A stretch of DNA of 29,134 nt, from positions 1-29,134 of IMG/VR virus record IMGVR_UViG_3300005511_000051; one strand, written 5' to 3'. A program made the translations under genes and the position numbers. How positions within the stretch are numbered: position 1 is the first letter of the stretch; the number at the start of each line of letters is the position of its first letter. Under the pieces are notes generated by a model. That model worked only from the letters and a program-made list of their open reading frames with translations. It searched no databases and was not told the origin of the DNA. This DNA is from a virus. This document shows, piece by piece, positions 1 through 29,134 of the stretch.

Positions 1-90
1 GAATGCCTCGCCCAGCTTCTCGGCTTCACTGTCGCGAAGATCGAGGATGAGGCGCCCACCGTTGCGCGCTTCCTCTCGGCCGCGGAGTGA
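1..90 (+). CDS. C-terminal end of an unidentified protein (partial)
   Basis: An open frame runs from the first base to a TGA at 88-90 and encodes the last 29 residues of a protein whose start lies outside the window. The visible tail, ending FLSAAE, has no recognisable motif. The next gene's GTG start lies 4 bases after this stop, and its GGAG ribosome site (84-87) lies inside the end of this frame, so the two are probably in the same operon. The reading frame is supported only by that arrangement and by ordinary amino-acid composition. No function is proposed. Confidence 0.55.
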   Translation, partial: ECLAQLLGFTVAKIEDEAPTVARFLSAAE

Positions 91-94
91 GCCA

Positions 95-652
95 GTGACC
101 GATCTAGGCACATTTACTGGCGAACCTGAAGAATGGCGCAGCATCTGCGATATGCCCGAATATGAAGTGAGCAGCCTTGGGAGAATTAGGCGCGTCAGAT
201 CGCTGATAAATAAGAAGCTTTATGAGCCCCTTACGCCACGACCAGGTCCATACGGGTACCCGAACTACTTATTTAAGTTCGGCAAGAAGAAATGGAGAAG
301 AAACATACACCCTTTGGTTTGCAGGGCTTTCCATGGCCCTAAGCCAACCCCAAAGCACGGGGTAGCACACAACGACGGCTCAAGGGATAACAATAGGGCG
401 TCTAACCTACGGTGGGTTACGCAAGTCGAAAACTCCCTAGATTCGATCAGACACGGAACCTCTACGAGAGGTGAACGAAACGCATTCTCTAAGCTCAATA
501 AAGATTCCGTCTTAGAAATTCGCAGAGAGTATCGCAGTTCTGGAAACGCAGAACGCAACAAGCAATTGATGGCTAAATTTGGGATCAGCAGGGCTACCTT
601 GTGTAACGTTGCTAACCGAAAATCATGGAGTTGGCTTAGCGATGAAGATTGA
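95..652 (+). CDS. NUMOD4/HNH homing-type endonuclease
   Basis: A predicted free-standing HNH endonuclease of 185 residues from the GTG at 95. That start is chosen because GGAG lies 7 bases upstream and it keeps the whole NUMOD4 motif; an ATG at 47 would overlap the previous gene. The N-terminus carries a NUMOD4-like segment (EEWRSI then PEYEVSSLGRIRR). An HNH_3-like core follows, with HPLVCRAFHG, VAHNDGSRDNNRASNLRWVT and a conserved GERNAFSKL. The C-terminus (LNKDSVLEIRREY then KFGISRATLCNV) reads as a helix-turn-helix DNA-binding segment. Such enzymes are mobile and usually nick or cut related phage genomes. The gene looks clearly AT-richer than the genes after it, which suggests recent arrival. 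Domain call is firm; activity is inferred. Confidence 0.88.
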   Translation: MTDLGTFTGEPEEWRSICDMPEYEVSSLGRIRRVRSLINKKLYEPLTPRPGPYGYPNYLFKFGKKKWRRNIHPLVCRAFHGPKPTPKHGVAHNDGSRDNNRASNLRWVTQVENSLDSIRHGTSTRGERNAFSKLNKDSVLEIRREYRSSGNAERNKQLMAKFGISRATLCNVANRKSWSWLSDED

Positions 653-791: not shown

Positions 792-976
792 GCAACCTCG
801 TTGAAACACTCCGCAATGCCGCCATTCACGCCCGCCAGATGGCTGACGAGTACCGCCGTGAAGGCAATTCAAAGCGGGCAGACGAACGTGACGCAGACGC
901 CGATCACTACGAGCTGAAGGCCTGGCAGGAAGAATGGCGCATCGCTCACCAAACCCCAAGGAGGGCAGCAGCATGA
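788..976 (+). CDS. Small charged hypothetical protein
   Basis: A 62-residue protein starting at ATG 788, which overlaps the previous stop by four bases (ATGA). It ends in the same ATGA overlap with the exonuclease gene. It is mainly helical and highly charged (EYRREGNSKRADERDADADHYELKAWQEE) with no membrane segment or known domain. Translational coupling on both sides is the main support for it being a real gene. Function unknown; it could be a small accessory partner of the recombination module that follows. Confidence 0.6.
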   Translation: MSNLVETLRNAAIHARQMADEYRREGNSKRADERDADADHYELKAWQEEWRIAHQTPRRAAA

Positions 977-1650
977 CCTACCTTTATCTGGACATTGAGA
1001 CTATCCCGGCGCAGTCGGACGACATCAAAGCCCGCATTGCCGCCAACGTCAAGCCACCGGCCGCGATGAAGAAGGCCGACACGATAGCCGCTTGGGAGAA
1101 GGAGCAGAAGGCTGCAGCCGTCGAGGAAGCCATTTCCAAGACCGGCCTTAACGCCGCCTTCGGCCATATCTGCTGCATCGGGTTTGCTTTCGATGATGGC
1201 CCCGTTTCATCGCAGACGGCGCAGGTGTGGACAGAAGAGAGGGACATAATCCAGTCCTTCTTCGAATACGTCAACGCCACCATCGGAAACCGCTTCCCCG
1301 TCATCGTCGGCCACAACGTCGCAGGCTTCGATATCCGCTTTATCTGGCAGCGCTCTATCGCTCTCGGCATTCGAGTGCCGGCATGGATGCCGCGTGATCC
1401 CAAGCCGTGGGGCAACGACGTGTTCGACACTATGACGGCATGGGCCGGCGCCCGCGACACGATCAGCATGGACAATCTGAGCGCCGCTCTCGGCCTGCCA
1501 GGCAAGGGCGAAATCGACGGGTCCATGATTGGACAGATGTTCGCAGACGGCAAGCACAAGGAAATCGCAGCCTATTGCCGGGAAGACATCGAGCGCACCC
1601 GCGCCATTCACCGGAAGATGCTCGTAGCGTTCGGGGAGATCGCAGCATGA
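973..1650 (+). CDS. DEDD-type 3'-5' exonuclease
   Basis: A predicted 225-residue DnaQ/PolB-proofreading-like exonuclease that would remove nucleotides from DNA 3' ends using two metal ions. The three Exo motifs are visible: Exo I YLDIET at residues 5-10 (D7, E9), Exo II VGHNVAGFD at 112-120 (D120), and Exo III YCREDI at 201-206 (Y201, D205), which gives the DEDDy arrangement. The length fits a stand-alone exonuclease domain. The gene is coupled by ATGA overlaps to the genes before and after. Together with the annealing-like protein and SSB downstream it forms a likely phage recombination or repair module. Fold call is secure; the exact substrate is inferred. Confidence 0.88.
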   Translation: MTYLYLDIETIPAQSDDIKARIAANVKPPAAMKKADTIAAWEKEQKAAAVEEAISKTGLNAAFGHICCIGFAFDDGPVSSQTAQVWTEERDIIQSFFEYVNATIGNRFPVIVGHNVAGFDIRFIWQRSIALGIRVPAWMPRDPKPWGNDVFDTMTAWAGARDTISMDNLSAALGLPGKGEIDGSMIGQMFADGKHKEIAAYCREDIERTRAIHRKMLVAFGEIAA

Positions 1651-2414
1651 CCGAGAAAACAGCACTATGGGATAAGCTGGGGAAGACAGACCCGGCGCAC
1701 ACAAAGCAGTTCCAGCGAGGCGGCGGCTTCCGTGGAACGGCAATCAAGCCAATGTGGTCATACCGTCGCATGACGGAAGAGTTCGGCGCCTGTGGCGTCG
1801 GCTGGGGCATCAATGAGCCTTCGTTTCAGGTCGTGCCCGTTGGCGAAGAAATCCTCGTCTATTGCACCGTGTCCATTTGGCACGGAAGCCGCGACCAGAT
1901 CGTTTTCGGCGTCGGCGGTGACAAGGTTGCCGGGAAGAACAAGAACGGCCTGCAACTGGACGACGAGGCCTTCAAGAAGGCTTTCACGGATGGCGTGACC
2001 AACGCACTGAAACTGATCGGCGTCGGCGCGGACGTTCACATGGGCATGTTTGACGATAACAAGTACGTCAACACGATCGCCAAGGAATTCGAGGCTGAGA
2101 AGGCCGGCGAGAAAAAGCCGGAACCGAAGCCTATCAGCGCCGCCGAGCAGAAGCGCCAGTTGGCTGCGATCGATCAAGACTTGCTCGACTGCGAATCAAT
2201 CCTTGCCGTCAATACCTGCGCCAAAACCTGGGCGTCCATCATGGAGCGTGACGGATGGTCGCGAGACTACCGCGAAGCAGCTCGCCCGAAATTCCAGGCG
2301 CGGCGAGATCAGTTGCAGGCGACCGAAGACACAGCCAACGCCATTCAAGAGCAATTCCCAGGCTCGACGGTCGTTTCAGACGCCGAAGCCTCACGCCATC
2401 CGCTGAACGCCTAG
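1647..2414 (+). CDS. Putative single-strand annealing recombination protein (Rad52/Erf-like)
   Basis: A 255-residue protein starting at ATG 1647 in an ATGA overlap with the exonuclease. The central part has the pattern AFKKAFTDGVTNALKLIGVG followed by ADVHMGMFDDNKYV (about residues 110-145). This pattern is widespread in phage proteins annotated as Rad52/22- or Erf-like annealing proteins, and it lies after a conserved aromatic segment (MWSYRRMTEEFG, GWGI). The C-terminal third is charged and Gln-rich and probably flexible. The exonuclease just upstream and the SSB 13 bases downstream support a role in annealing single strands during phage recombination or replication. The family call rests on motif memory and context, so it is moderate. 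Confidence 0.6.
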   Translation: MTEKTALWDKLGKTDPAHTKQFQRGGGFRGTAIKPMWSYRRMTEEFGACGVGWGINEPSFQVVPVGEEILVYCTVSIWHGSRDQIVFGVGGDKVAGKNKNGLQLDDEAFKKAFTDGVTNALKLIGVGADVHMGMFDDNKYVNTIAKEFEAEKAGEKKPEPKPISAAEQKRQLAAIDQDLLDCESILAVNTCAKTWASIMERDGWSRDYREAARPKFQARRDQLQATEDTANAIQEQFPGSTVVSDAEASRHPLNA

Positions 2415-2427
2415 AAGGACCGACACC

Positions 2428-2832
2428 ATGAAAGCCATCACTCTTGCAGGAACAGTCGGAAAAGACGCGGTTATGCGGCGCACTCAGGGCGGGGAGCCAG
2501 TTCTAGGCTTCTCCGTCGCTGTTGATGACGGATACGGCGAGAACAAGACCACGATGTGGTTTGACATCGCCCTGTGGGGAAAGCGCGGGGATTCCCTCGC
2601 GAAATACCTGACGAAGGGAACGAAGGTCTGCGTTACCGGCGAGTTCGGCCAGCGCCACCACGAAGGCAAGACCTATTTCACCTGCCGCGCGTCCGATATC
2701 ACCCTCATGGGCGGCGGGGATAAGCCAGCGGCACAGCCAGCCACCGAGCGCCGGGATAGCTACGGCAATCAGCCGGCGAACTTCCGCAGCGATCTTCAGG
2801 ATGACATCCCGTTCATGTGCGAGTGGCGCTGA
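2428..2832 (+). CDS. ssb: Single-stranded DNA-binding protein
   Basis: A 134-residue SSB with an OB-fold over roughly residues 1-95 (MKAITLAGTVGKDA, TTMWFDIALWGKRGDSLAKYL, KGTKVCVTGEFG, KTYFTCRASDITLMG), then a short Gln/Pro linker. It would coat single-stranded DNA in recombination or replication. The partner-binding tip normally ends the protein as DDDIPF. Here DDIPF (residues 125-129) is followed by five more residues, MCEWR, so the tip is not terminal. GAAGGA lies about 8 bases before the ATG. The stop overlaps the next start as TGATG. Confidence 0.93.
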   Translation: MKAITLAGTVGKDAVMRRTQGGEPVLGFSVAVDDGYGENKTTMWFDIALWGKRGDSLAKYLTKGTKVCVTGEFGQRHHEGKTYFTCRASDITLMGGGDKPAAQPATERRDSYGNQPANFRSDLQDDIPFMCEWR

Positions 2833-3263
2833 TGGCGAAAACCGAACACGCGCCAATCTACGTCATGCGCCGCGGCGATGCGCTTTACCCAGAGATGCAA
2901 GCCGACGCAGAGATGATCCGCAAGATGCAGCCGGGGGAGCGTATCCGCGTCGATCTCCGCACCGGCCGATCGCCTGCCCGCCTGCGGTTTTATTGGAGTT
3001 TCCTCGCGAAGGTAGTCCAGGCAACAGAGTGCACTGGCTCACCGGAAGTGTTGCACGACCTGGTGAAGGTTCACACGGGATACGTAAACCCTGTGATGTT
3101 TCGGGGCCATACGTACCTGTTCCCCGCCAGCATCGCGTTTTCCTCCATGACGGAGGAAACGTTCGACAAATTTTGCGAGGCCGCAATTCGGTTCATCGCG
3201 GAAAATTACGGCGTCACGCCAGAAGATGTCTTCCCCGATCAGAAGGAGCGCCGCTGTGCTTAA
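2832..3263 (+). CDS. Conserved phage protein, possibly DUF1367-like
   Basis: A 143-residue protein from ATG 2832, which shares a base with the ssb stop; an in-frame GTG at 2817 is an alternative but would lie inside ssb. The middle has SPARLRFYWSFLAKVVQAT, then LHDLVKVHTGYV, then MTEETFDKFCEAAIRFIAENYG. This arrangement (basic helix, hydrophobic helix, a GYV turn, closing helix) resembles small phage proteins found beside recombination genes, often grouped as DUF1367. Its place directly after ssb suggests a DNA-metabolism accessory. I do not recognise a catalytic motif, so the family name is tentative. Confidence 0.55.
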   Translation: MAKTEHAPIYVMRRGDALYPEMQADAEMIRKMQPGERIRVDLRTGRSPARLRFYWSFLAKVVQATECTGSPEVLHDLVKVHTGYVNPVMFRGHTYLFPASIAFSSMTEETFDKFCEAAIRFIAENYGVTPEDVFPDQKERRCA

Positions 3264-4008
3264 ATACGACCTTTCCGGAAAACGATTCTCAAGATGGACG
3301 GCAGTCTATCATGTTTCTCACGGCATATGGGAGTGCAAGTGCGATTGCGGCACAACGTCAAAGGTAAATGGCAAGAACCTGCGATACGGCAACAGCAAGA
3401 GCTGTGGCTGCTTGAGAGTTGACATCGGGGCGACAAAGAACAGGACGCACGGTCATACTGCGAACAGGGAATACTCTCCAGAATATAACGCCTACCGGAA
3501 CATGCTCCGCAGATGCTTTGAAAAAACAAACGAAAAGTACCCCCAATATGGAGGGCGGGGTATTTCTGTATGTGATCGTTGGAATGCCTCTTTTGATAAC
3601 TTCTTTGCCGACATGGGCAAAAAACCTAGCCCACTTCACAGTTTGGACAGGGTGGACGTTAACGAGGGCTATAGCCCTGGAAATTGCCGATGGGCCACAC
3701 CAAAGGAACAAGCCAGAAACAAGACATGCAACGTTATCGTATCACTCGGCTCTGAGCAAATAACGCTTGCGGAAGCATGCGAACGACTCGGCTTAAAATA
3801 TGGGACTATCCATAATCGGATGAACAGGTACGGGATGACGTTCGATGAGGCGTTGAACGTCCCATCCCGCCTCAAGCTCAGCAAAGAACAGATACAGGAA
3901 ATTATCAACACGACACCATACCGTGGCGTGACTGTGGACCTGTCGAAGAAATTCGGCGTTTCCAACGTCCGTATTGGTCAGATTATGAGGGGAAGGGCTG
4001 CAGCATGA
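3256..4008 (+). CDS. Homing-endonuclease-like protein with zinc ribbon and GGRGI core
   Basis: A 250-residue protein starting at GTG 3256; AAGGAG at 3243-3248 lies 7 bases upstream, which decides the start. An N-terminal zinc ribbon (CKCDCG, then SCGC; C27, C29, C31, C50, C52) is followed by the conserved phage nuclease-like core: YNAYRNMLRRC, YGGRGISVCDRW, SFDNFFADMG, SLDRVDVNEGYSPGNCRWAT and KEQARNK. The C-terminus holds two helix-turn-helix-like stretches (ITLAEACERLGLKYGTIHNR and VDLSKKFGVSNVRIGQIMRGR). The family is common in phages and usually labelled HNH or homing endonuclease. The gene looks AT-richer than its neighbours and overlaps the previous gene by 8 bases. It is probably a mobile endonuclease. 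Confidence 0.75.
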   Translation: MLKYDLSGKRFSRWTAVYHVSHGIWECKCDCGTTSKVNGKNLRYGNSKSCGCLRVDIGATKNRTHGHTANREYSPEYNAYRNMLRRCFEKTNEKYPQYGGRGISVCDRWNASFDNFFADMGKKPSPLHSLDRVDVNEGYSPGNCRWATPKEQARNKTCNVIVSLGSEQITLAEACERLGLKYGTIHNRMNRYGMTFDEALNVPSRLKLSKEQIQEIINTTPYRGVTVDLSKKFGVSNVRIGQIMRGRAAA

Positions 4009-6144: not shown

Positions 6145-6317
6145 CAGCGCCAGCAGCTATCAAGAAATCCGACCTGACGCGCGTTGCAGCCGTGGCGAAG
6201 GCTGAAGGCATTTGCATCGAAGTCGAGATGGGCGGGGCGCTGCTGCGGTTTTTCCCAAATATCCCCACCCAAACAATTCAGAAGCCCATTGCGCCGAAGG
6301 GCGGGGTTCGTCTTTAA
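6141..6317 (+). CDS. Small protein just upstream of integrase
   Basis: A 58-residue protein from ATG 6141. It opens with a helix (AAIKKSDLTRVAAVAKAEG), then two short strands (ICIEVEM, ALLRFF) and a polar tail. This helix-strand-strand layout, directly before a phage integrase and overlapping its start (TAATG), is frequent in alphaproteobacterial prophages as I recall them. Position and size would allow a recombination directionality role. No classical excisionase helix-turn-helix is visible, so that is only a possibility. Confidence 0.55.
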   Translation: MTAPAAIKKSDLTRVAAVAKAEGICIEVEMGGALLRFFPNIPTQTIQKPIAPKGGVRL

Positions 6318-7420
6318 TGAAAGACATGCCCCGCAAATTGCCTCTCAACGTCACGATGGAACGAAGCCGCCATGGAACGGTGGTGTTCTACTATCGTGTC
6401 GACAAAGGCCCTCGCACCCGCATTCATGGCGTTCCGAACACGCCAGAGTTCGAAGCAGCATACAAGGCCATCGTGGCGGGGACGCCGATCGTCAAGGCTC
6501 GCGACAAGGCGGACACTAAAACTCTCAAGTGGCTGATCGAACGATACATGGAATCGGCCGGATGGAAGAACCTGTCTGACGCCACCCGGAAACAGCGCGG
6601 GAATCTTTTCAAACAGGCGATCGCCAATTCAGGGAATGCCGACTACCGGGATATATCCGGCCAAGATGTCAGGAACGCGATCGATGCCAGGGGAGACACC
6701 CCAGCGCAAGCGAATTGCTACCTCAAGGCCCTTCGAGGGCTTTTTGAATGGGCGCTGAAAAACAACCACGTCGATATTGACCCCACGCATGGCGTCGAGC
6801 GAATAGGTTACAAGAGCGACGGATTTGCCGCTTGGGATGCTTCTGACGTTCGCCAGTTCTGCCATAAGTGGAAGGTAGGGACAAAGCCGCGGCTGGCTAT
6901 TGAGCTTCTTCTCTGCTCTGGCCTGCGCCGGTCTGATGTCGTTCGCGCCGGTCGCCAGCATATGAGCGGCAACACATTCTCAATCAGGACGGTGAAGACA
7001 GGGACGGAGATAAGCGTCGAGTTCTCCGACCGTCTCATAGACGTGATCAATGCCACCGATACCGGCGAATTGCATTTCCTTGTGAGCAGCTACGGAACGC
7101 CGTTCACAGTCGAAAGCTTTGGGAATTGGTTCCGTGACTGCTGCCGTGACGCTGGCATAAAAAAGAGCGCTCATGGCGTCCGGAAGTTTGTTGCGACCAT
7201 GGCGGCGAACAGCGGCGCATCGGCTCATGAGCTGATGGCACAGTTCGGATGGTCGAACGTTCGGCAAGCCGAGGTCTACACAAAAAAGGCAGACCGGAAG
7301 CGGCTTGGCGTGTCCGCGTCCAGGATGGCAGCGGAACAGATGGAGAAGGAACTTTCCCCGCACCCGAATTCCAGTGCGGGGGATGTGTCAAAAAAATCAA
7401 TAAAAACAAAGCCTGAATAA
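6317..7420 (+). CDS. int: Tyrosine-family phage integrase
   Basis: A 367-residue site-specific recombinase that would integrate the phage at attB and, with a partner, excise it. The start ATG 6317 overlaps the preceding stop. Residues about 65-155 form the core-binding (SAM-like) domain (LKWLIERYME, LKALRGLFEWAL). The catalytic domain holds R204 in SGLRRSD, K227 in VKTG, H286 and R289 in HGVRK, W312 in FGWSN in place of the second His, and the nucleophile Y321 in AEVYTKK. The last 25 residues are a poorly structured Ser/Lys tail. The gene closes the early operon and is followed by repeated CCCGCACC elements that may belong to attP. Confidence 0.95.
   Translation: MKDMPRKLPLNVTMERSRHGTVVFYYRVDKGPRTRIHGVPNTPEFEAAYKAIVAGTPIVKARDKADTKTLKWLIERYMESAGWKNLSDATRKQRGNLFKQAIANSGNADYRDISGQDVRNAIDARGDTPAQANCYLKALRGLFEWALKNNHVDIDPTHGVERIGYKSDGFAAWDASDVRQFCHKWKVGTKPRLAIELLLCSGLRRSDVVRAGRQHMSGNTFSIRTVKTGTEISVEFSDRLIDVINATDTGELHFLVSSYGTPFTVESFGNWFRDCCRDAGIKKSAHGVRKFVATMAANSGASAHELMAQFGWSNVRQAEVYTKKADRKRLGVSASRMAAEQMEKELSPHPNSSAGDVSKKSIKTKPE
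7356..7381 (+). repeat. Inverted repeat inside the 3' end of int
   Basis: CCCCGCAC at 7356-7363 is matched by its exact reverse complement GTGCGGGG at 7374-7381 around a 10-base loop. The hairpin lies in codons encoding the non-conserved C-terminal tail of the integrase. No T-run follows on either strand, so it is not a standard terminator. It contains one copy of the CCCGCACC word repeated downstream and could be a recombinase or accessory-protein site. Confidence 0.5.
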
Positions 7421-19652: not shown

Positions 19653-20234
19653 ATGGCTGAACTGACATTTTCAGAAATTTCAAAGATTCTCAAGTACGAG
19701 CCGGAGACCGGGAAGCTGTTTTGGCTACCGAGGCCGGTCGAGATGTTCCGCGCTGATTCAGCATTTTATGGTGGCACAGAGGTTTCGGCGAAAGCTTGGA
19801 ATGCAAAGAACGCCGGGAGAGAGGTCACCCGTAGCACCTCGCTAGGATACATAACCCCAAGGATCATGGGGAAAAACTACGCAGGACACCGGATAGCTTG
19901 GCTACTGCATTACGGAACTTGGCCGAAAAACCACATTGATCATATCAACGGTATCAAGTCCGATAACCGCATAGAGAACCTTCGCGACGTTCCACGGGGG
20001 AAGAATATGCGAAACATGCGGCTCCAGAAGAGGAATAAGACAGGAACTCCGGGAGTGGGATGGTGCAACATCTACAACAAGTGGAAAGTTCGTATTGGGA
20101 TGGGCGGGGGCAAGTCCCATTTCGTCGGTTATTTTCTAGACTTTAATGCTGCTGTCGCCGCCCGAAAGAAAGCCGAGGCAATTTATGGCTACCACACAAA
20201 CCACGGCCGATTTCAGCTAGAGGAAACTTCCTAG
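19653..20234 (+). CDS. HNH-AP2 homing endonuclease
   Basis: A 193-residue free-standing homing endonuclease with AAGGAGG 5 bases before its ATG. The HNH core is GHRIAWLLHYGTWP, then HIDHINGIKSDNRIENLR (His, Asp-His, Asn), then GKNMRNMRLQKRNKTG. The C-terminal AP2-like DNA-binding domain follows: GVGWCNIYNKWKVRIGMGGG, SHFVGYFLDFNAAVAARKKA, and a tail YGYHTNHGRF. It is transcribed opposite to the virion genes around it and its last 18 bases overlap the end of the next - strand gene. It looks AT-richer than its neighbours. It is an inserted mobile gene that would cut phages lacking it and spread into them. Confidence 0.92.
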   Translation: MAELTFSEISKILKYEPETGKLFWLPRPVEMFRADSAFYGGTEVSAKAWNAKNAGREVTRSTSLGYITPRIMGKNYAGHRIAWLLHYGTWPKNHIDHINGIKSDNRIENLRDVPRGKNMRNMRLQKRNKTGTPGVGWCNIYNKWKVRIGMGGGKSHFVGYFLDFNAAVAARKKAEAIYGYHTNHGRFQLEETS

Positions 20235-21810: not shown

Positions 21811-22163
21811 TGGCGCGAAGACAGCGCAAAGTTCATGATGTAGATCAGCGTTACATAAACGCTCGAATTGCCGACGACTCGGATTTCGTCACCCGTCCGA
21901 AGCCGCAAGGGTATGTTCTCAACGATCTCGGTCGCGTCGTTAGCAACCGACTTTTGCCAGACGAGGGCTTCCGTTGTCGTAGACGCCCGATACCAGTACA
22001 GTTGACAAACCACAGCGCCGCCGTTGTCATTGCAGAATGCAAAGCTCCCCAGCGTCAGCGTGTCGTCTGCCATCGTGTCGCCAACTTTGATCTTGGTTGT
22101 GTTCGCGAGCGTCTGGCAGACCGGGATTTCTACGTTGCCTGAATAGTTACCTGTCACCGCCAT
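21807..22163 (-). CDS. Small beta-rich virion protein
   Basis: A 118-residue protein made almost wholly of beta strands: NVEIPVCQTLANTTKIKVGD, VVCQLYWYRAST, IPLRLRTGDEIRVVG and VYVTLIYIMNFAL. This looks like a small beta-sandwich decoration or joining protein. It begins one base from the gp10-like gene's stop and overlaps the GNAT-like gene by ATGA. No specific family was recognised. Confidence 0.6.
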   Translation of the reverse strand: MAVTGNYSGNVEIPVCQTLANTTKIKVGDTMADDTLTLGSFAFCNDNGGAVVCQLYWYRASTTTEALVWQKSVANDATEIVENIPLRLRTGDEIRVVGNSSVYVTLIYIMNFALSSRQ

Positions 22164-23614
22164 TATTGTTCACCACTCTGCTGTGCGTTGACATTCACCG
22201 CACTGGCGATGCTCCAAGTGGTTGCCTCCGGGATGATCAGGCGAAACTTGTGCAGCCGGCCATCAGAGCGGAATGGCACGAGGCCGGCGCGGTTGGCTGT
22301 GTTGGCAGTCGAGAATGTCACGGTATCGCCGTGATAAGCCTGCACACCATCAGCGAGAGTGAACGTGGTTGCGTCCGTGATGACGCGGGCGCCGTTGACG
22401 AAGGCTCGCGTCATGCCGTCGATCTCGACTTCTGCGGTGTCGATAGTCGCTTGCAAATTCGGGCCGGTGAAATAGGCCAGCTTGTTGTCGCTTGTGAATG
22501 TAGCAAACGTCGGACGGCCACCGGAAAACAGGCGGCTATCAAAAGGCTCTACGGCGTCGTCAATCGTTGCATAGAGCAGATCGAGGCCATCCCATGTGAT
22601 CGCTGGGGTAGCCAGCGCCACCATTTCCCCAACCTGAATGTCGGTTGTGCACCAGCGGTCCAGCTGCCAGTCATAGCCAAGACGCCGAAACGTGCCGCCC
22701 GCTGTCCGATATTTCCACCAGACGATTTTTTCGAACGGGTCAGCAACGCCCTGCACGTCGGCAAGATAGTTCTGATCGATCTGTTCAAGGAACCAATCGT
22801 CTACCCGCTCTGCGCCGATCGGCTGGCGATTGACGCCACCAAAGAACCCATCTTCAGAGAGATAGAAAAACTGTCCCGGTCCGATCGAAACAATCGACCG
22901 CGGCGCAAGCGTCCCCTGCTTCGGATTGAGCACGGTGCGCGTGAAGGTAAATCCGGACGATGGTGCGAACGGGAAAAACTGCATCCCAGAGCGCTGAATG
23001 ACCGTAAAGCCGCCCTGATCGCCAAAGCCGCCCATCACTTCATCGCCTTCGGGAAGCTCCTGCACGTCTGCGCCGTTCTTGCCGATCGTCCACGCCGTGA
23101 TGTTGTTCAAGGCGCTCCAGCGGATGGTCTTTTCACCGGACGCTCCGGCCAAATACCCAAGCACAAGGAAATCACCTGAAACCCACGAGTATTTTGCGTT
23201 CGGCGGACTGCCAGCGAGCGCGGCAAATGTGCCCCCAGCCTCGATGTCATAGACCTGAATGGGATTGGCTATATTGTGCGCGACAAGCTGGTTTCCAAAG
23301 CGCGTAAATGTCCATGAATCATTCAGAGGAACGGCAAATGGGGCGCCGGCGCCGCTGATGTCTGTCCATGTGTAGTTCGTGGTGTCCAGTTCGTAGAGGC
23401 GCGTTTCCGTCCCGGCGATGACTTTATAAACCCCGGCAGAATTGCGGACATAGACGGCACCACGGCATTCCGATGCGAGCGCTGCGCTGATCTCCGTCAA
23501 ACCTGGCATCGGCCCCCAGCCATTGGCGACCGGGAGAGCGTTGACGACATTGCTGCTTGAGGAGATCTCAAACGGGCTTTTATCCGGCTCGAATGGGGAA
23601 AATGGGATCAGCAT
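22163..23614 (-). CDS. P22 gp10-like tail hub / packaged-DNA stabilisation protein
   Basis: A 483-residue protein from ATG 23614, which shares a base with the adaptor's stop (TGATG). An ATG at 23632 is less likely. It opens LIPFSPFEPDKSPFEIS and then VANGWGPMPGLTEIS, followed by a beta-propeller-like series (YVRNSAGVYKVIAGTETRLYEL, FGNQLVAHN, QVYDIEAGGTF, DFLVLGYLA, TIRWSALNNITAW). The C-terminal half continues as beta structure (FYLSEDGFFGGVNRQPIG, WWKYRTAGGTF). It should sit below the gp4-like adaptor and close the portal channel after DNA packaging. A second copy of its residues about 29-88 lies at 24252-24443. Confidence 0.8.
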   Translation of the reverse strand: MLIPFSPFEPDKSPFEISSSSNVVNALPVANGWGPMPGLTEISAALASECRGAVYVRNSAGVYKVIAGTETRLYELDTTNYTWTDISGAGAPFAVPLNDSWTFTRFGNQLVAHNIANPIQVYDIEAGGTFAALAGSPPNAKYSWVSGDFLVLGYLAGASGEKTIRWSALNNITAWTIGKNGADVQELPEGDEVMGGFGDQGGFTVIQRSGMQFFPFAPSSGFTFTRTVLNPKQGTLAPRSIVSIGPGQFFYLSEDGFFGGVNRQPIGAERVDDWFLEQIDQNYLADVQGVADPFEKIVWWKYRTAGGTFRRLGYDWQLDRWCTTDIQVGEMVALATPAITWDGLDLLYATIDDAVEPFDSRLFSGGRPTFATFTSDNKLAYFTGPNLQATIDTAEVEIDGMTRAFVNGARVITDATTFTLADGVQAYHGDTVTFSTANTANRAGLVPFRSDGRLHKFRLIIPEATTWSIASAVNVNAQQSGEQ

Positions 23615-24255
23615 CAGACCAGATAATCCCATCCCGTGAAGTCACGCCCGATGCCAACCAGGGCCGGGTCAGTCGTCAGCTGGCTGCGCTTCTTCTGCGC
23701 AATGGTGCTGCGAACTTCGGTCGTGAACTCGTCCAGCATCCCCTTCCACATCGCCCCGCCTTGCAGGTCTTTCGTGTATACGGCGCCCCAGACGATCGAA
23801 GCAGCCATGTAGAGGTCTGGATTGTTGGTGAGAAATTCGTTCGTCGGCGCTGCATCGGAGAGCGCAAAGCGGCCCTGATAGACGAAACGGAAGGAATAGG
23901 CCTGATCGCAGGGACGATCGAGCTTGATGTTCGTGCCCTCGATAGCCCAAAGGCCGGGAAGGCCGCTGATGGTCTCCGTCGTGAATGTGCCGAGAGCGCG
24001 AGGAGCAACGAAATATTCGGTATTGCCGTCCGTAACATAGAGGTCTTGCGGCTCGACCATTGACAGCGCCGAAATGCTGATGGAAGCACTATCAACGACG
24101 CCGGTCAGCGTGGTCGTGGTCGCAACCACCTCCAGCAGGCGGTTCAGACGCGCCTCGCCAAGAGTGATGAAGTCGGCAGCACTGCCGGAAACGTCCGATC
24201 GGGCCATCCAGTCGGCAATTGCGGTTTTCAGTTCGCTGTAGGTTGCGATACTCAT
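23614..24255 (-). CDS. P22 gp4-like head-to-tail adaptor
   Basis: A 213-residue protein from ATG 24255 (MSIATYSELKTAIADWMARSDV), an opening typical of phage adaptor proteins annotated near P22-type tail hubs. A helical first third (ADFITLGEARLNRLLEVV) is followed by beta strands (YVTDGNTEYFVAPRALGTF, IKLDRPCDQAYSFRFVYQGRF) and a helical end (MWKGMLDEFTTEVRSTIAQ). It would form the ring between portal and tail hub. The start lies in an ATGA overlap with the short duplicate gene just upstream. Confidence 0.75.
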   Translation of the reverse strand: MSIATYSELKTAIADWMARSDVSGSAADFITLGEARLNRLLEVVATTTTLTGVVDSASISISALSMVEPQDLYVTDGNTEYFVAPRALGTFTTETISGLPGLWAIEGTNIKLDRPCDQAYSFRFVYQGRFALSDAAPTNEFLTNNPDLYMAASIVWGAVYTKDLQGGAMWKGMLDEFTTEVRSTIAQKKRSQLTTDPALVGIGRDFTGWDYLV

Positions 24256-24443
24256 TTCGACATGTCCGTCCATGAATAATCGGTCGTGTCCAGCTCATAG
24301 AGAGCCGTTTCCGTCCCGGCGATAACTCTGTAATTCCCGGCTGCAGCGCGAACGTAGACGACGCCCAAACACTCTGAAGGGAGGGAATTGGAGATTTCCG
24401 TAAGGCCAGGCGTCGGTTCCCAGCCGTCTGCAACAGCGCTCAT
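24252..24443 (-). CDS. Short duplicate of the gp10-like N-terminus
   Basis: A 63-residue frame coupled by ATGA overlaps to the glycosyltransferase before it and the adaptor after it. From VADGWEPTPGLTEIS to YSWTDMS it aligns without gaps to residues 29-88 of the gp10-like protein encoded downstream; I count 43 of 60 positions identical. The first 28 residues and the remaining 395 of gp10 are missing. It is therefore a partial duplication, or a leftover of a second tail hub gene after mosaic exchange. It has intact start and stop, so it may be expressed as a small separate domain. Confidence 0.75.
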   Translation of the reverse strand: MSAVADGWEPTPGLTEISNSLPSECLGVVYVRAAAGNYRVIAGTETALYELDTTDYSWTDMSK

Positions 24444-25123
24444 TTCGCCTCCATGCAGCCGCCTGGCTGCCTCATCATGAAACGATGCAGATTTCCGCGG
24501 TAAGCGGTCGTGCTGGAGTGATGATCAATGTCGAGATCCGGAATCAGCGCGATTTCGCCGCCAGCCTCGCGCCAACGCTTCGAAAACGCGTAGTCCTCGC
24601 CGTACCAGACGCCATCAATGACGCCATGATTGAAGAGATCGACGGTCGGGCTGTATCGGACGCCGAATATCAGCTCCGGATGCGCCTTCATGAAGCGATC
24701 AACCGCCGCCTTGGTGATTTTCAGGAACCCGGCCGGGACGCGATCAGCCAGAAAGCACCCATCAGCCCGAAGGCGAGGGTAGCCATCGGCGTTCGTCTGC
24801 CATGTTCCCATGTATCGTTCGTCATCGGTCTTGAACCGATATGTTCCGGCGACAACATCGCCGTCAGTCTCGATGAGCGTCAGGAGGTCTTGCGGCTTCC
24901 ACGACACGTCGTAATCGATGAAGACAATCACATCCGCATTGGCATCAAGTGCCTTTCGCAGCATGGTTGCCCGTGCATAGCTGATGTACGGGCAACCACG
25001 TTCTTCAACCGCGCCCTCTTCCCATCCTGCCGCTTGGATGAGCGGTAGTGAACCTTCCAGCGCCGCGACAAACGGCGCTGTGGGCCCATTGAGAGACGGG
25101 ACGCAGAAAACGACCTTGCTCAA
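24440..25123 (-). CDS. GT-A family glycosyltransferase
   Basis: A 227-residue GT2-like glycosyltransferase. It opens with a Rossmann-like strand (VVFCVPSLNGP), then YISYARATMLRKAL and the metal/nucleotide-sugar DxD motif FIDYD (D70, D72), then DGDVVAGTYRFK. The acceptor half has VPAGFLKITK, an acidic GEDYAF (E176, D177) and DLDIDHHSS. There is no membrane segment, so it acts in the cytoplasm. It lies inside the head-tail block, so it may glycosylate a virion protein or modify host sugars late in infection. The fold is clear; acceptor and sugar are unknown. Confidence 0.82.
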   Translation of the reverse strand: MSKVVFCVPSLNGPTAPFVAALEGSLPLIQAAGWEEGAVEERGCPYISYARATMLRKALDANADVIVFIDYDVSWKPQDLLTLIETDGDVVAGTYRFKTDDERYMGTWQTNADGYPRLRADGCFLADRVPAGFLKITKAAVDRFMKAHPELIFGVRYSPTVDLFNHGVIDGVWYGEDYAFSKRWREAGGEIALIPDLDIDHHSSTTAYRGNLHRFMMRQPGGCMEAK

Positions 25124-25353
25124 GCGGAGCCTTTCCAGACGCCGATTGCGGTCAAGGTGTTCATGATTTCGATGACTGCGGCCTTCAGAGCGGTATCAAC
25201 CGCCGTCGAGGATGCAGTGCCGACGAGCGACGTTGCCTGCGTTGCGCCGGAGCGCTGCACGATCGGCGTGACGCCGTAGAGGCTGACAAGGTCAGTGGTG
25301 GATTGGCCGACCGATACTCCGGTGCCATTTCCATCCGAAAGCTGCTGTACCAT
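25120..25353 (-). CDS. Small head protein (decoration or head-fibre-like)
   Basis: A 77-residue protein from ATG 25353, chosen because AAGGA lies 9 bases upstream. It has the pattern seen in small phage head proteins placed right after the coat gene: GTGVSVGQSTTDLVSLYGVTP, IVQRSGATQATS, then a helix AVIEIMNTLTAIGVWKG. It probably decorates the capsid. It overlaps the glycosyltransferase start by ATGA. It follows a terminator-like hairpin, so its level may be lower than that of the coat protein. Confidence 0.65.
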   Translation of the reverse strand: MVQQLSDGNGTGVSVGQSTTDLVSLYGVTPIVQRSGATQATSLVGTASSTAVDTALKAAVIEIMNTLTAIGVWKGSA

Positions 25354-25382
25354 GATTAGAATCCTTCTGGATTTGATGGAGG

Positions 25383-25405
25383 AAATAGAAAGGGGCCGAA
25401 GCCCC
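25383..25405 (-). terminator. Rho-independent terminator just after the coat gene
   Basis: On the - strand GGGGC-TTCG-GCCCC (25405 down to 25392) forms a 5-base-pair stem with a stable UUCG loop, followed directly by TTTCTATTT. It lies 6 bases after the coat stop and 38 bases before the next start. This would reduce transcription into the tail genes relative to the coat. Confidence 0.6.
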
Positions 25406-25411
25406 AATCAA

Positions 25412-27676: not shown

Positions 27677-29134
27677 TTACCCTTGGCGCGTGGGATTTGT
27701 CTGCGAAGCCTGCGAGGCTCGCTGCTGTGCCGTGATGACGTGGCCGGCTACCTTGGCCTCCGCGTCCGTCGCAATCTTCATGCGATCGGTCTGGATATCG
27801 CCCTCGACCTGCATGCGCTTGGTTTCGGCGTTGAACTGGTCAACGGATTTATCAGCCTTCAGCGCCTCGACTTCCTGCGTGAGCTGTTGAATGGCCTGCT
27901 GGCCCTGCTCGATCATCTGCTGCACTTCAGGCGGCAAGCCCTTCTGCTGATTTGCAGGGTTCATCGCCTCGAAACGCTTGGCGATCTCATCAGCACCGGG
28001 CCAATCGAAGTTCTTCGCCATGATGTCTGCAATGAACGGTGCTGCCTGCGGGAATGCCCTGACAAGCTCCGTCATCTGTGTTGCCGCTTCTTCGCGACGG
28101 GTCGTGAACGACGGACCAGACGAGACAACCAGGTCATACTTGCCGGCCGTCAGGTCGTGGATAGCCAAAAGCACTTCGCCCTGGTCATCCTTCAACGGCT
28201 GGCCGTCTGGGCCGATCTGCTCTGCAGGCTCCTGCCCGTTGACCTTCACGGCCTGCTGGCTGCCGTCCTCACCTACCACGCGAACGATGCGCTCTCCCGA
28301 ATACACATGCGGGATAAGCTCCAGCAGAATGCGGCCGGTATGGCGGATGGCGCGGGAAAGGTTGTCGATGAAGTGGAATGTCGCAACGTCGCCCTCGCGC
28401 TGACGGGCCATGATGGCCTTGCCGCTGGTCTCGTTCGAACGGGCGCCGAGCGAGGCATCGTAAATGCCGATGATTGCCTTCATATCGTCGGAGGCGTTCA
28501 ACGCTTCCTGAAGCGATCCAGCAGCGGGACCAACGTCGAGCGGCTGGCGAGTAGGTGGCTCTCGATCGTATTCAAGATAGGCGTGACTGTCCGTGTTTGC
28601 CGTCGCCCAGCGCGATGCATCGCTATCGAACGTGCCCTTGGGACCAATCCACGGCACACGCGGCGCCAGCGCAACAAGCTCCGTCGCCGTCGTGCGCCAA
28701 TAGTTGTACATCCGCTGTGCGTCGATCGCGTTGTGAATGAGGCTGCGGAAATAGCGCTTGCCCTCGACCACGATCTCATCCCCATAAACCGGGACAATCG
28801 GGATGTAGCAGCCGGGGAAGTCGTTCACCTCCAGCACGTCAGCGCCGGTCATAATGATCTGGCGCACCTTGTAGGACTTGGTGGCGCGCTCACCGACGAT
28901 CTCGATCGCGCCAGCCTCAGCCAGGACAGCCAATTCAGGATCGGCCTCGAAATCCTCGCGGGCGATGACCGCGCCATTCGAGAGCTTGACAATCTCCTTC
29001 TCGACCTGCTCGCGCGTCCACCATTCGGCAATCATGACCGTTTCGTCATCGAGCCAGTCATCGGCATTCGACCAGGCGTCGTTGTCGAAGTCTACGCAGA
29101 CAGGTTCGCCGCCCTTGTTCTTCTTCTTCTTGTA
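27677..29134 (-). CDS. Portal protein, P22-like (5' end outside the window)
   Basis: The frame stays open to the window edge at 29134, so 485 residues of the portal's C-terminal part are visible. An ATG at 29035 is internal: the codons before it (KGGEPVCVDFDNDAW, DDWLDDETV) continue the protein. Portal signatures include FRSLIHNAIDAQRMYNYWRT, VPWIGPKGTFDSD, ALNASDDMKAIIGIYDASLG and a conserved SGKAIMARQREGDVATFHF. The C-terminal region is Gln-rich and helical (QMIEQGQQAIQQLTQEVEAL), fitting the barrel helix. It forms the dodecameric ring through which DNA is packaged. The terminase genes should lie just upstream, beyond the window. Confidence 0.9.
   Translation of the reverse strand, partial: YKKKKNKGGEPVCVDFDNDAWSNADDWLDDETVMIAEWWTREQVEKEIVKLSNGAVIAREDFEADPELAVLAEAGAIEIVGERATKSYKVRQIIMTGADVLEVNDFPGCYIPIVPVYGDEIVVEGKRYFRSLIHNAIDAQRMYNYWRTTATELVALAPRVPWIGPKGTFDSDASRWATANTDSHAYLEYDREPPTRQPLDVGPAAGSLQEALNASDDMKAIIGIYDASLGARSNETSGKAIMARQREGDVATFHFIDNLSRAIRHTGRILLELIPHVYSGERIVRVVGEDGSQQAVKVNGQEPAEQIGPDGQPLKDDQGEVLLAIHDLTAGKYDLVVSSGPSFTTRREEAATQMTELVRAFPQAAPFIADIMAKNFDWPGADEIAKRFEAMNPANQQKGLPPEVQQMIEQGQQAIQQLTQEVEALKADKSVDQFNAETKRMQVEGDIQTDRMKIATDAEAKVAGHVITAQQRASQASQTNPTRQG

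Follow-up and report, generated by a model that had tools for sequence, protein, structure and literature searches.

A tail-hub gene fragment between the glycosyltransferase-like and adaptor genes of a podophage related to Rhizobium phages: a probable recombination scar carried as a translated passenger

Gene fragments left behind by illegitimate recombination are known from mosaic phage genomes. Relaxed homologous recombination has been described separately (PMC3945230). In phage SU10, the nozzle protein, which is seated on the adaptor, is composed of a platform domain and a seven-bladed propeller (PMC9509320). Cistrons joined by an ATGA overlap showed strong termination-reinitiation coupling in nine out of nine tests in H. 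volcanii, and most of five such pairs from E. coli were coupled as well, with bioBF uncoupled despite its overlap (PMC6728339).

Here, we describe a 63-codon piece of tail-hub gene that lies between two ATGA overlaps in the window, the entire DNA of 29,134 bases that makes up a single IMG/VR virus record. This record represents a temperate-type podophage related to Rhizobium phages, its closest records being Rhizobium phages and Rhizobiaceae prophages. Like the gene fragments of mosaic phages, the piece is partial, sits at a gene border, is private to one genome, and is flanked by a short repeat. Unlike them, it is an intact ORF with an apparently acquired ribosome-binding site, and it splits a coupled gene pair.

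The parent hub gene and its neighbors

The structural genes of the window lie on the minus strand in the order portal, scaffold, capsid, small ORF, glycosyltransferase-like gene, 63-codon ORF, adaptor, and tail hub. The glycosyltransferase-like gene (24440..25123, minus strand, 227 aa) matches PHROG 1574 and, below the cutoff, Pfam Glycos_transf_2 (E 0.004). It is followed, beyond the 63-codon ORF, by a head-tail adaptor gene of the SU10_adaptor family (23614..24255, minus strand; Pfam PF24175, E 8e-21; PHROG 2941). An ORF listing that starts the adaptor at 24273 is merely the longest reading of this frame; homology to other adaptors begins at 24255.

The full-length tail-hub gene (22163..23614, minus strand) belongs to PHROG 3287 (E 3e-93), and its protein has no Pfam match and no sequence match in the PDB. 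Position 23614 is the likelier start, because relatives begin there. The AlphaFold model of the hub (mean pLDDT 90.6, with 35 homologues in the alignment) is matched by Foldseek to the solved tail structures of Pseudomonas phage Pa223 (E 6e-28), Vibrio phage VP1 (1e-24), SU10 (1e-17), and P22 (1e-13). Judged by this predicted fold and by its place after the portal, capsid, and adaptor genes, the parent gene is a tail hub of the gp10/nozzle type, which shares its fold and PHROG 3287 with P22 gp10, the SU10 gp17 nozzle, and the Pa223 and VP1 hubs. As in SU10-type tails, it comes after an SU10-type adaptor gene.

The 63-codon ORF and the junction that it interrupts

The 63-codon ORF (24252..24443, minus strand, ATG start, 63 aa), whose predicted product includes VIAGTETALYELDTTDYSWTDMSK as an example peptide, is related to the N-terminal part of the hub. 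In a BLASTP alignment, its residues 4-62 pair with residues 35-93 of the 489-aa hub ORF without a gap (43/59 identities, 50 positives, E 4e-28), which corresponds to hub residues 29-87 when counted from the start at 23614. The homologous segment of the hub gene, located by tblastn and BLASTP, lies at 23354..23530 (minus strand), and the DNA of the two is 68% identical across 177 bp. PHROG 3287 is recovered independently by the full hub and by the fragment (E 4e-9, profile positions 36-95 of 524), and this homology supports placing the fragment in the hub family. The preliminary description of an ungapped, partial copy of a gp10-like hub is borne out by these alignments, down to its numbering of the hub residues, and the codon coordinates agree with its placement of both gene ends in ATGA overlaps: the fragment ATG (24443-24441) overlaps the TGA (24442-24440) of the upstream glycosyltransferase-like gene, and the fragment TGA (24254-24252) overlaps the adaptor ATG (24255-24253), forming the ATGA at 24255-24252.

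Only 60 of the 524 profile positions of PHROG 3287 are present in the fragment. Compared with known hubs, it is missing the beginning of the platform domain and every subsequent blade, and with neither platform nor propeller complete it would by itself be unable to form a hexameric hub. In the hub model, the copied segment comprises two N-terminal strands followed by four consecutive ones (58-62, 68-73, 78-81, and 88-90), a predicted extent of about one propeller blade; its left end cuts inside the N-terminal strands, away from a domain border. Modeled alone with AlphaFold, the fragment forms a four-stranded beta sheet (pLDDT 79) with its first eight residues disordered and a pLDDT of about 85-91 over residues 25-60, although this is no proof of independent folding, because the underlying alignment consisted of hub segments.

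The glycosyltransferase-like gene directly adjoins the adaptor gene in 36 related loci, spread over 28 contigs; the gap there ranges from -26 to +12 bp, against 187 bp in the window. The fragment is hence an insertion of 188 bp between these two genes, and the uninterrupted junction of the relatives is the absence at the same place that identifies a scar. At the two ends of the inserted block lies the 9-bp direct repeat CGAAATGAG, which occurs just twice in the window, on the same strand and with a spacing of 188 bp (left copy 24439..24447, right copy 24251..24259, both minus strand); the right copy includes the fragment stop and the adaptor start. Since exact 9-bp repeats are common by chance (five families in 1.26 kb) and ATGA is shared by definition, we regard the repeat as supportive rather than as proof. 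The hub homology of the fragment ends after residue 93, where every comparable relative with a printed flank continues with Gly (mostly GPSAPY) and the fragment has Lys-stop, contributed by the repeat. At the same border, two relatives (L081 and L106) carry other small, unrelated ORFs, so this junction accepts insertions. In L081, L106, L032-L034, and L137, the flanking genes are spaced more widely; the intervening ORFs were considered as further hub pieces and rejected, being unrelated to the hub.

The arrangement is confined to this record in all material searched, which comprised viral contigs (four protein queries and one alignment query) and genome contigs. No further stand-alone copy was found among 113 distinct hub N-terminal DNA segments; every other segment belongs to a long hub ORF or to one truncated where its contig stops. 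Among 395 host-family genomes there was likewise no stand-alone copy; 25 of them have a match, in hub-length frames (at least 484 aa) in all cases save one, a 32-residue remnant with a stop (G379), which is also the one short match, besides that of the window, not explained by a hub gene running off its contig. Five matches were obtained by tblastn in phage records, the best of which falls inside a full hub gene, a near-identity DNA search with the region returned no database match, and a literature search of partial coverage revealed no described stand-alone hub fragment. The closest relative of the region (L004) has no fragment, and another gene occupies the position preceding its adaptor.

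Translation, origin, and possible roles of the fragment

The fragment is preceded by a Shine-Dalgarno core, GGAGG, at 24447..24451 (minus strand; duplex -9.3 kcal/mol), while the adaptor's own site in the window reaches -5.5 kcal/mol. In relatives with the gene pair, the adaptor site is GGAGG or GGGGG (-8.4 to -9.3 kcal/mol) and lies within the end of the glycosyltransferase-like gene. The insert thus appears to have taken over the ribosome-binding site of the adaptor. The combination of a stop/start overlap with a weak independent downstream site is that of ATGA-coupled cistrons (PMC6728339), here with an overlap at each end of the fragment, and adaptor translation is expected to be coupled to that of the fragment. 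In contrast to the described pairs, the upstream cistron is a degenerate piece of a structural gene rather than a partner subunit, and coupling is deduced from the arrangement. A point against coupling is that a site of -5.5 kcal/mol may suffice alone, given that some relatives have an adaptor site of just -5.6 to -6.7 kcal/mol.

We consider it probable that the ORF is a scar of illegitimate recombination kept as a translated passenger. Such an event would have brought about 177 bp of hub gene, donated by an ancestor of this phage or by a related phage, into the ATGA overlap that joined the glycosyltransferase-like and adaptor genes; the 188 bp gained have CGAAATGAG at either end. With the left repeat, the previous ribosome-binding site and start codon would have been retained and would now initiate the fragment, and the right repeat would provide the fragment stop together with the adaptor start. 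Most translation of the adaptor would then come from ribosomes that terminate on the fragment and reinitiate at the ATGA, and selection for adaptor translation would preserve the reading frame of the fragment regardless of any activity of the peptide, which we take to be the most likely reason for its open state. Translation of the fragment itself, as claimed in the preliminary description, is probable. Two observations speak against a mere passenger: no codon interrupts its frame and amino acid changes are not in clear excess, which selection on the peptide would produce as well, and its length and phase fit the reading frame, an outcome that chance would give about 1 time in 9.

The scar is a known kind of event in an instructive arrangement. 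As an example of the birth of a small phage gene, dated by its context, it suggests that an insert at a stop/start overlap can inherit a ribosome-binding site and join the translation chain, such that its frame is protected before the peptide has a use. If the adaptor truly depends on the fragment, this would constitute a route from recombination debris to a fixed gene; if the adaptor is independent of it, the fragment would be an ordinary scar.

The divergence of the fragment bears on its source. Its identity is 75% with the hub of L004 and 73% with both its own hub and that of a prophage (G220); the own and L004 hubs are 80% identical to each other. In trees built from the 59 codons, the fragment and its own hub form no supported clade, and the free tree is better by 5.3 and 7.5 lnL, although the own-hub clade is not rejected (p-AU 0.32 and 0.25). 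Either the source was another phage's hub allele or the copy is old, as far as these identities can indicate; synonymous sites, at a pS of 0.66, are too near saturation to date it. Being no nearer to its own hub than to that of another phage, the fragment fits the scar between two hub alleles that had been proposed at the outset, and it is, as also proposed, no fresh tandem copy.

The same observations would accommodate a recent neutral scar, in which a hub piece from an unsampled related phage is too young to have decayed and both coupling and peptide are irrelevant. Divergence from the resident hub at the between-phage level, the unsupported clade with that hub, and the closely related L004 contig without the insertion all agree with this scenario. 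We nevertheless find it rather unlikely, as each end coincides exactly with an ATGA overlap and the frame, phase, and ribosome-binding site all match, and because the adaptor is essential in related tails, translation into it would hardly be neutral.

A functional mini-protein, a free propeller-blade peptide with a part in tail assembly or a modulating effect on it, seems improbable to us. Such a peptide might, for instance, bind subunits of the hub or the adaptor while the tail is being built, or it might regulate the assembly of the hub or act there as a decoy. Besides the strong ribosome-binding site, the open frame, and the predicted sheet, the case for it includes constraint: pN (0.20) is well under pS, and of 12 columns invariant in all 28 aligned homologues, W and G positions included, the fragment by definition keeps 11. 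The dN/dS check suggested in the preliminary description accordingly gave a low Jukes-Cantor value of about 0.15, similar to that of full-length hub pairs, but with a single copy it cannot decide between function and scar, and it is no proof of peptide function: the bulk of the divergence may have accumulated inside full-length genes, before the insertion took place. At columns conserved at 90%, moreover, the fragment differs at 4 of 31 (N37D, G40E, M42T, and I92M), whereas full-length hubs differ at 0.7 on average, and its protein end branch (0.30) is the longest of the close group (median of all rows 0.054). A relative-rate count gives 8 unique amino acid changes for the fragment against 4 for the hub, and 13 against 9 at third positions, an excess that is not significant in one copy of 59 codons. 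Together, these values favor neither reading clearly and lean slightly toward relaxed constraint. The left end inside the hub strands and the absence of the fragment from every relative searched also argue against a dedicated peptide, and the earlier suggestion of a small domain retained across phages does not hold among the hub N-termini and host-family genomes covered here. A passenger maintained through translation of the adaptor would leave the frame open irrespective of the peptide.

A metagenomic or draft-assembly chimera that joined a hub piece of another strain at this site is very improbable, since, although the insertion is seen in a single IMG/VR record only, the block copies none of the hubs retrieved, with a DNA identity of 70% at best, and a chimera would not be expected to join both ends in frame with perfect stop/start overlaps.

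Variable positions in related phages and other features of the record

The stretch between the capsid and adaptor genes is a variable slot (24440-25407 in the window, L004:4549-5304, L003:4169-5791, and L032:4200-5358). It is occupied by the glycosyltransferase-like gene here and in many relatives, by a different gene of 251 aa in L004 (named by eye), by a methyltransferase-like gene in L032-L034 and L137 (that of L032 named by eye), and by an HNH endonuclease and small genes in Rhizobium phage RHph_N3_2.

Hub genes themselves also vary in length. The 614-aa hub of L053 (1692-3533) contains an extra domain of ~110 residues near residue 100, directly past the segment that the fragment copies. 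An internal duplication was suspected in this hub and ruled out, as self-comparison gives a domain insertion only; insertions appear to be tolerated in the loop that follows the first blade of the hub. Two hubs of 600 aa (L078:5741-7540 and L079:5741-7540) have an insertion in the C-terminal third, in the region of profile positions 344-385.

The portal gene of the window (27677-29035, minus strand) is cut by the record end and covers positions 219-660 of the 681 in the portal profile; the record is therefore incomplete or was opened within this gene. An integrase is encoded at 6212-7420. Three ORFs resemble HNH homing-type endonucleases, at 47-652 (plus strand; HNH_3 and NUMOD4 matches), 3226-4008 (plus strand), and 19653-20234, the last lying on the plus strand amid genes of the minus-strand structural operon. 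A recombination/replication-type cluster at 934-2832 (plus strand) comprises a PolB-like 3'-5' exonuclease, an ORF with a match to an exonuclease-labelled PHROG, and a single-strand binding protein.
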